DNA from: Kaistia defluvii
GTDB taxonomy: Bacteria > Pseudomonadota > Alphaproteobacteria > Rhizobiales > Kaistiaceae
Reading direction: 5' to 3'
Assembly: GCF_026343955.1 (NCBI RefSeq)
Contig: NZ_JAPKNI010000005.1
Coordinates: forward strand, 62,001 to 126,000
Length of the DNA stretch: 64,000 nt
Positions 38,434 through 41,986 of the stretch are shown here, piece by piece. The notes beneath the pieces were generated by a model. It was not told where the DNA came from, made no database searches, and saw only the letters and a program-made list of their open reading frames with translations. Each line of letters begins with the position of its first letter. Positions within the stretch are counted from its first letter, which is position 1. The position numbers were made by a program, and so were the translations under genes.

Positions 38434-38737
38434 GGGATGAGGTGCTTCGCGGCAGACGCGGAGGAGCGCAACGCATGGGCTGCGGGAGCCGTCCGTATTG
38501 CAATCTGCGTTGTCCGGCGGATCGGCGGCCGGAAGAGCCACCCGGATTTTCACCGGGTCCAGTCGAATACTCTCCTCATATCCCCAGACGGAAAGCGGAT
38601 GCAACAGCATCGACGTCGATCTGTCCCACGAGCCTCCCTCTGTTGCGCTGCAGGCACTATTGCGGCGCGGCGAGCACGCAATTCCGCTACGGCAGCATCT
38701 CGTGTAGGGTGGAATTCCCCAACGGAAGGAGGCGCGA
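38434..38737. other. Divergent intergenic region between the SulP and VOC genes
   Basis: 304 bases between two divergent starts. It must contain both promoters, but I see no convincing -35/-10 pair or operator. The right edge holds the strong GGAAGGAGG ribosome site for the VOC gene. Confidence 0.5.
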
Positions 38738-41368: not shown

Positions 41369-41636
41369 GCGATTTCCCCATGCGGCTGTCCTTGCCGCGT
41401 CAGCGATTCCCGAGATCAGGCTCGATCGTGTCGGGCGCTGCCTCTTTAGGCAATATTGCAGCGCAACATTTAGTCACTCTTGCTTGCTGCTCTGCATCAT
41501 CCGCAGCGCAGCCATGCGCATTTTCACAGTGCTCGTTTCGAAAGCCTTCCCCTATATTCGGATCAACAAGAGCGGCGGCGACGCAGACGACATCCTCCGC
41601 TTCTTCAATTGTCCGATCGTCCGAAGGAAAAAGACC

Positions 41637-41789
41637 GTGGCTACGAACATCCTCGCTTCCTACAAGAACTGGCGCAAGTACCGCGAGACCTACAGCGAGT
41701 TGATGCGCCTTACGTCCCGCGAGCTCAATGACCTTGGAATCAATCGCGGCGACATCACGCAGATTGCCAAGCAGTCGGCCGGTTACTAA
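41637..41789 (+). CDS. DUF1127 small protein (CcaF1-like)
   Basis: 50 residues: Met-Ala-Thr-Asn then a DUF1127 core with [20 protein letters not shown] and [15 protein letters not shown]. The start is a GTG at 41637, because GAAGGAAA lies just upstream and family members are 45-50 residues; the longer open frame from 41512 has no similarity. DUF1127 proteins are Arg-rich; one, CcaF1 of Rhodobacter sphaeroides, binds RNA and affects maturation of the small RNAs encoded in its own 3' region. The same layout is found here: hairpin RNA starts 16 bases after the stop. Probably stress-induced, but no promoter could be assigned. Confidence 0.9.
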
Positions 41790-41799
41790 ACCGATACGG

Positions 41800-41922
41800 A
41801 ATTCGCGCGGGAACAAACCTCCTCCCTTGTTCCCTGCGATACGGCGCTAGCGAACCTCCTCCCTCGCGATGCGCCATTCAAAGAAACGCCCGTCGACCTC
41901 CTCCCCGACGGGCGTTTTCTTT
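41800..41922 (+). ncRNA. CcsR / 'cuckoo'-type small RNA with three identical anti-Shine-Dalgarno loops
   Basis: Three consecutive hairpins each present the loop ACCTCCTCCC. Hairpin 1: stem 41809-41816 with 41827-41834 (extended past a one-base bulge), loop 41817-41826. Hairpin 2: 41850-41853 with 41864-41867 plus an outer GGCGC/GCGCC stem (41843-41847 with 41871-41875), loop 41854-41863. Hairpin 3: 41884-41895 with 41906-41917, loop 41896-41905. The stems differ while the loops are identical, which is strong evidence for selected structure. The loop resembles the CCUCCU of 16S rRNA 3' ends and matches the CcsR motif. Likely processed from the DUF1127 mRNA; the 5' end is approximate. Confidence 0.88.
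41884..41920 (+). terminator. Intrinsic terminator, which is also hairpin 3 of the small RNA
   Basis: A perfect 12-bp stem AAACGCCCGTCG / CGACGGGCGTTT followed by TCTTTTG. The terminator loop itself carries the CCTCCTCCC motif. Confidence 0.88.
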
Positions 41923-41986
41923 TGTCCGGACCGAACTGCGAACTGCGCAGTTGTCCGAAACGTTCCGGCGCAATAATCTCCGCGCC

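Follow-up and report, generated by a model that had tools for sequence, protein, structure and literature searches.

A DUF1127 gene and the αr14 small RNA behind it apparently share one LsrB/VtlR-type promoter in Kaistia defluvii

Organization of the locus

The window analysed here is a stretch of 64,000 nucleotides of Kaistia defluvii, and positions are counted from its first letter. It carries a short DUF1127 gene with three hairpins directly behind it and a putative promoter unit in front. The features are as follows.

41493-41506, + strand: LsrB-type box TGCATCATCCGCAG, with 7 of the 8 fixed bases of TGCA-N6-GCAT (consensus from PMC10746234)
41504-41518, + strand: CAGCGCAGCCATGCG, agreeing at 12 of 15 bases with the VtlR motif CAATGCAGCCATGCA (PMC12595884) and overlapping the box
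41552-41557, + strand: -10-like CTATAT, 59 bases past the box start (form in NfeR1: CTTAGAC-N17-CTATAT, PMC10746234)
41637-41789, + strand: DUF1127 small protein, 50 aa, GTG start, TAA stop included (PF06568 match)
41800-41920, + strand: αr14 small RNA, model positions 1-123 of 123 (Rfam covariance model RF02344)
41803-41839, + strand: hairpin 1, loop ACCUCCUCCC at 41817-41826 (predicted fold, covariation)
41843-41875, + strand: hairpin 2, loop ACCUCCUCCC at 41854-41863 (predicted fold, covariation)
41880-41922, + strand: hairpin 3, loop ACCUCCUCCC at 41896-41905, U-rich tail (predicted fold, covariation)

The open reading frame 41637-41789 matched PF06568 with 52.2 bits (cut-off 23.3), confirming the 50-residue DUF1127 protein of the original prediction, and the next gene after the array is trmFO (672 bits, cut-off 262). 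In the predicted fold, the first stem begins 13 bases after the stop codon, instead of the 16 bases given earlier. The sequence ACCTCCTCCC is located at exactly 41817-41826, 41854-41863 and 41896-41905, and in the minimum-energy RNA fold of 41790-41925 every copy of ACCUCCUCCC forms the ten-base loop of a separate hairpin, in agreement with the proposal of three hairpins closing the same loop. The fold energy was -57.1 kcal/mol compared with -34.1 ± 3.4 for shuffled sequences (z -6.8), and none of 200 shuffles was as good. Hairpin 3 with its U-rich tail looks like an intrinsic terminator, so that the terminator itself probably presents the third loop, as had been suggested. Our terminator scan found none here, because it permits only loops of 3-8 bases. 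A sigma-70 scan also found nothing.

The sequence CCTCCTCCC was found five times in the window, while 0.82 copies were expected and the maximum in 100 shuffles was 3. Three of the five copies lie within 88 bases, and the other two (7992 and 47251) are isolated. In the whole genome there are 12 copies of ACCTCCTCCC, eight of them inside three αr14 loci. Since the reversed pattern occurs 16 times, it is the clustering and not the number of copies that stands out.

The hairpins belong to the αr14 family

The covariance model RF02344 (αr14) matched 41800-41920 over its full length with 73.1 bits (curated threshold 58.8), and the traits of αr14, namely three hairpins, CCUCCUCCC loops and variable covarying stems, are all present. 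Thus, the element is a standard member of a separately named family and already known in kind. A new RNA class is ruled out by this match, and membership in CcsR is ruled out by the score of the CcsR1 model RF02791 (35.6 bits, threshold 65.3). The original prediction regarded the array, whose last hairpin belongs to the terminator, as a compact form of CcsR-like RNA, but such a set of three hairpins is the normal form of αr14 (RF02344 alignment; PMC10746234). RNAs of three or four hairpins, in which the loops read CCUCCUCCC and the stems vary more, were described in 2011 (PMC3927594), and the same description was repeated for αr14, in nearly the words of the original prediction (PMC10746234). 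On the other part of that claim, the kinship with CcsR or 'cuckoo' RNAs and the linkage to DUF1127, the literature agrees: the association of DUF1127 with CcsR-like RNAs has been published as the 'CIN1 locus' (PMC10253847), and the locus here shows this linkage, with its short DUF1127 gene next to an RNA of CcsR-like kind.

The element resembles the founder of the family, NfeR1/Smr14C2 of Sinorhizobium meliloti, in length, in its three hairpins with CCUCCUCCC loops and in the third hairpin residing in the terminator. It also resembles ccaF1-CcsR1-4 of Rhodobacter sphaeroides (RF02791), where CcsR RNAs are co-transcribed with, and downstream of, DUF1127, although CcsR consists of four RNAs under a RpoHI/RpoHII promoter there (PMC10253847).

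The genome has five DUF1127 matches and three RF02344 copies (75.9, 73.1 and 66.5 bits), and a short DUF1127 gene immediately precedes each of the three copies; the 14 control genomes gave no RF02344 match. Several copies per genome are likewise usual in the αr14 family (PMC7143759; PMC10746234), but in S. meliloti Northern blots gave reliable detection for only one of the six (PMC7143759), which counts against expression of every copy. One DUF1127 gene of this genome without αr14 (L015) had no exact loop in the downstream stretch examined.

Loops are more conserved than the covarying stems

We gathered homologues of DUF1127 within the genus and the family and then inspected the DNA downstream, so that the loops played no part in finding the elements. 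The DUF1127 search gave 63 matches in 27 of the 41 genomes (14 had none). Loci were taken for 30, and further loci were added for many, not all, of the remaining matches in 14 genomes of the genus; strong matches left out include one each in G001, G005, G007 and G015. Two profile hits with too little downstream DNA were dropped (L169 and one of L039), leaving 54 after deduplication, of which eight scoring below 72 were removed (three of L039, and L037, L040, L041, L043 and L015) to give 46 elements. This limit was set after the folds had been inspected. Of the eight, L040 carries four exact loops in a span of 260 bases and two of the L039 hits carry CTCCTCC loops; no exact loop is present in L037, L041, L043 or L015. 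From the same genome as the window, three of the 46 (L009-L011) came from the RF02344 search, and the same genes were also found by the DUF1127 search. Because the 46 elements are relatives of one another, some of them paralogues, the counts are not independent.

Three CU-rich loops of anti-Shine-Dalgarno type were predicted in 43 of the 46 DUF1127-anchored elements. Among 135 loops of all 46, preselected by the CU-rich filter, CCTCCTCCC was present in 99 and TCCTCCC in 130. For covariation we aligned a closer set of 28 relatives and paralogues, leaving out seven C1-type elements (wider first loop), four with a short first loop, one near-duplicate and six distant members. In this alignment, the loop columns were 98.6, 92.5 and 92.9% identical, compared with about 80% for the stems and 42% for the rest, pointing to selection on the displayed anti-Shine-Dalgarno loop, and the loops did not vary as freely as the stems. 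With the structure of the window, which is itself one of the aligned sequences, 92.9% of cells could pair (88.1% in shuffles). Compensatory changes, which the original prediction had proposed to look for in relatives, were evident: 17 of 38 pairs had changed on both sides against 9.7 in shuffles, none of 500 shuffles being as high, and the covariation score was 0.229 against 0.141 for shuffles and 0.064-0.132 for slid controls. One of the five measures, the number of further pair types, did not favour the structure: 33 were counted, the shuffles gave 34.2, and 406 of the 500 shuffles reached at least the observed value.

These values of identity and covariation in the 28 sequences indicate that the stems vary yet keep pairing, while the loops mostly stay. 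Of the idea of different stems with invariant loops, the first half holds, but the loops are highly conserved rather than invariant. Loop 3 can carry either C or U at its second position, distant family members have shorter motifs such as UCCUCCC or UUCCUCCC, and C1-type copies have a wider first loop, including the C1 copy in the same genome, whose loop begins with AUCUCCUCCCC.

A promoter unit precedes the DUF1127 gene

The binding site of LsrB in front of NfeR1 is TGCA-N6-GCAT, located at about -72 to -57, CTATAT is the form of the NfeR1 -10, and αr14 promoters have a common conserved upstream stretch (PMC10746234). Both elements of this promoter type, the LsrB-type box (with one mismatch) and the -10, were found before DUF1127 with nearly the same spacing as in NfeR1, and the combination of the two occurs once in the window on both strands, at this site. 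We predict that transcription would start near 41564. The -35 region (AGTGCTC, 41528-41534) matches the NfeR1 consensus poorly, and the VtlR 15-mer is not significant alone, since three matches with three mismatches in the window against 2.05 expected is the level of chance.

Among the 46 elements, 40 have a box with at most one mismatch starting 275-300 bases before the DUF1127 stop, where 8.3 would be expected to have one anywhere in the 170 bases examined, and ten boxes are perfect against 0.57 expected. In 34 of the 40, a -10 agreeing at five or more of its six bases lies 58-59 bases past the box start (33 at exactly 59), compared with an expectation of 7.05 over all 50 spacings together. 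Thus, 34 of 46 elements, the window included, have the full unit before DUF1127. The spacing was first noticed in these same data and the elements are related, so that these are not independent trials; expectations came from first-order Markov shuffles for the box and single-base shuffles for the unit, both here and for the arrays of other genera below. A loosened box, GCTNTGCN7GCA, was rejected as a specific signal: it gave 58 matches in the genome against 92 in the reversed control, showing that the box alone is not specific, only the box with the spacing and the -10. The unit was absent from the 600 bases before the domain in L015 and L016, the two DUF1127 genes of this genome that lack αr14, a weak comparison with only two genes.

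Unlike NfeR1, a 123-nt transcript with its own promoter (PMC10746234), the RNA here is located after a gene that the similar promoter unit precedes, and DUF1127 and αr14 thus seem to be driven by one common regulated promoter. The unit points to an LsrB-type regulator. The published regulators of NfeR1 are LsrB, which activates it, and NtrC (PMC10746234). In this genome a LysR-type gene (L238:2500-3390) starts 42 bases after the end of the trxB reading frame, and the order trxB-vtlR is conserved in the class (PMC7486931). The identification of this protein as LsrB rests on gene order, as no NCBIfam model names it so.

Loop arrays in other genera

A second set comprised at least 133 arrays (on at least 120 stretches), of which 127 were kept and six had too little upstream DNA. 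As the exact loop was required, this set is silent on loop variation. Among the matches listed, 35 arrays have DUF1127 within 70 bases, and the promoter unit precedes 17 of these (0.03 expected); it also precedes 11 of 21 with DUF1127 at 70-400 bases (0.03 expected) and 14 of 71 without detected DUF1127 (0.1 expected), and is missing before 85 of 127. Similarly, among the matches listed a perfect box was present within 450 bases of 25 of 56 arrays with DUF1127 and 14 of 71 without it (0.8 and 0.86 expected). Where DUF1127 is within 70 bases, the unit starts 274-314 (10 of 17), 369-371 (2) or 469-476 bases (5) before the first loop, and for arrays without DUF1127, six of 16 unit sites lie 86-118 bases before it and the others are scattered, again among the matches listed. 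Five of these 71 arrays are in unrelated phyla (L053, L097, L132, L160 and L161) and probably occurred by chance. In Agrobacterium pusense (L074), one box with a single mismatch lies 280 bases ahead of the stop codon of DUF1127, and another lies 85 bases ahead of the array.

We also noted three unusual arrangements. In genome G031 of the same order (L039:1490-3135), an AT-rich relative of the module is repeated four times, with four tandem DUF1127 genes in about 2 kb, 450-480 bases apart, and CTCCTCC in a likely hairpin loop in three of the four downstream stretches. Paired perfect TGCA-N6-GCAT boxes, 39-40 bases apart, lie upstream of the array in L050, L051, L056, L086, L098, L101, L121, L136 and L145, mostly records of Rhodobacterales, whereas LsrB has been described as apparently confined to Rhizobiales (PMC11975290). 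Finally, L093, L103, L123, L139 and L145 have 10-12 CCTCCTCCC loops in one run, compared with three in αr14.

These data bear on a possibility that the hairpins are mainly a cis element, which terminates the DUF1127 mRNA and stabilizes its 3' end, and that the real product is the protein. The short distance from the stop codon to stem 1, too short to hold a promoter that does not overlap the coding sequence, would fit this explanation, as would the functions that DUF1127 proteins have in their own right (PMC12501420). However, a plain stabilizer is not expected to conserve its loops more than its stems, and arrays without DUF1127 in 400 bases exist, up to 71 of 127 among the matches listed (an upper bound because of the narrow profile). 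We therefore regard the cis element as very improbable.

Possible function in trans

It is quite probable that the locus works as one transcription unit, in which an LsrB/VtlR-type promoter would drive DUF1127 and a 3' end, αr14, that silences mRNAs in trans. According to this model, LsrB or VtlR would act at the box (41493-41506) in front of the -10 at 41552, and αr14 would be transcribed as the 3' end of the DUF1127 message. There the three hairpins would form, each showing ACCUCCUCCC, the last one also looking like a terminator. The RNA may be cut from the mRNA or may act as its 3' end, and its loops would pair redundantly with purine-rich Shine-Dalgarno sequences, blocking ribosome binding and silencing the mRNAs. 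The model for this silencing is NfeR1, which pairs with its targets at the start of translation through three redundant loops and so silences ntrB and, in earlier work, two mRNAs for transporters; silencing of ntrB was lost when the three loops were mutated (PMC10746234). Because the loops are identical, the same action may be supposed here, and by this homology the earlier suggestion that the RNA binds the ribosome sites of mRNAs is likely correct.

The same suggestion allowed for sequestration of a protein. In a wider form of this decoy reading, the loops, resembling the tail of 16S rRNA, would capture a protein, a component of the ribosome or other RNAs, and the RNA would titrate a factor instead of silencing mRNAs. 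Several identical presenters per molecule, three genome copies and the arrays of 7-12 loops in some Rhodobacterales loci would suit titration, but the tested member, NfeR1, silences its targets through the loops (PMC10746234), and we consider a decoy unlikely. Returning to silencing in trans, perfect loop complements 3-10 bases before ATG were not enriched in the genome (five against four in the reversed control), which rules them out as a target list. The histidine kinase gene directly before ntrC has NR(II) as its best model (204 bits, under the cut-off of 240), and TGAGGAGAG before its GTG contains a six-base match to the loop complement. We did not accept this putative ntrB as a demonstrated target, because such a match is an ordinary Shine-Dalgarno sequence and proves nothing.

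The DUF1127 protein itself may help maturation of the RNA. In R. sphaeroides, RNase E cuts the ccaF1-CcsR precursor and the DUF1127 protein CcaF1 aids maturation (PMC10253847; PMC8625941), which we take as a lead for the protein here. On the other hand, small DUF1127 proteins of Agrobacterium were reported to act on the sensor kinase PhoR, and no RNA binding was found for YjiS of Salmonella (both according to PMC12501420), which count against such a role.

Relation to VtlR-controlled DUF1127 genes and AbcR-like RNA

As the element is already known, it matters mainly as another case. Within the extracts covered by our literature search, no publication naming both NfeR1 and DUF1127 was found, and to that extent DUF1127 and αr14 as one unit appear unpublished. 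The common promoter joins two lines of study, NfeR1 with its activator LsrB and the DUF1127 small proteins activated by VtlR. In Brucella, three DUF1127 genes are under VtlR control with the reported motif CAATGCAGCCATGCA; the loss of virulence in the vtlR mutant was not accounted for by these genes (PMC12595884). The small gene atu1667 of Agrobacterium, which is orthologous to two genes of Brucella, is a direct target of activation by VtlR, and the report on it leaves undecided whether it encodes a protein or acts as RNA (PMC7486931); from this orthology, atu1667 would itself be a DUF1127 gene.

The promoter unit before DUF1127-αr14 therefore raises a possibility that VtlR-controlled DUF1127 genes of other bacteria are heads of αr14 transcripts. 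Tentatively, and with rather more doubt than belief, we propose that DUF1127-αr14 is an ancestral LsrB/VtlR-driven unit, that loss of the protein gene or copying of the promoter in some lineages gave rise to stand-alone RNAs like NfeR1, and that the VtlR-target DUF1127 genes of Brucella and atu1667 are the mRNA portions of αr14 transcripts. If so, some effects credited to the small proteins or to the regulator would run through RNA, DUF1127 knock-outs would need checking for effects on RNA in the 3' end, and whether DUF1127 binds RNA or protein would become testable in one operon.

AbcR1/2 (αr15, partial homology to RF00519) are also sRNAs with anti-Shine-Dalgarno motifs under LsrB/VtlR control (PMC7143759; PMC7486931; PMC10746234), but they form a different family and lie at a different locus. 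Apart from the locus studied here, a sul1 RNA of Rfam (RF03058, 78.2 bits) lies at 38508-38563 on the minus strand of the window. Elsewhere in this genome, an AbcR-like RNA (RF00519, 71.9 bits; AbcR is linked to this model in PMC7143759) is located at L202:1501-1578 (G000 C1:862718-862795) on the minus strand, and a perfect LsrB-type box, TGCACACAGCGCAT, lies about 200 bases upstream, between the RNA and a divergent reading frame.
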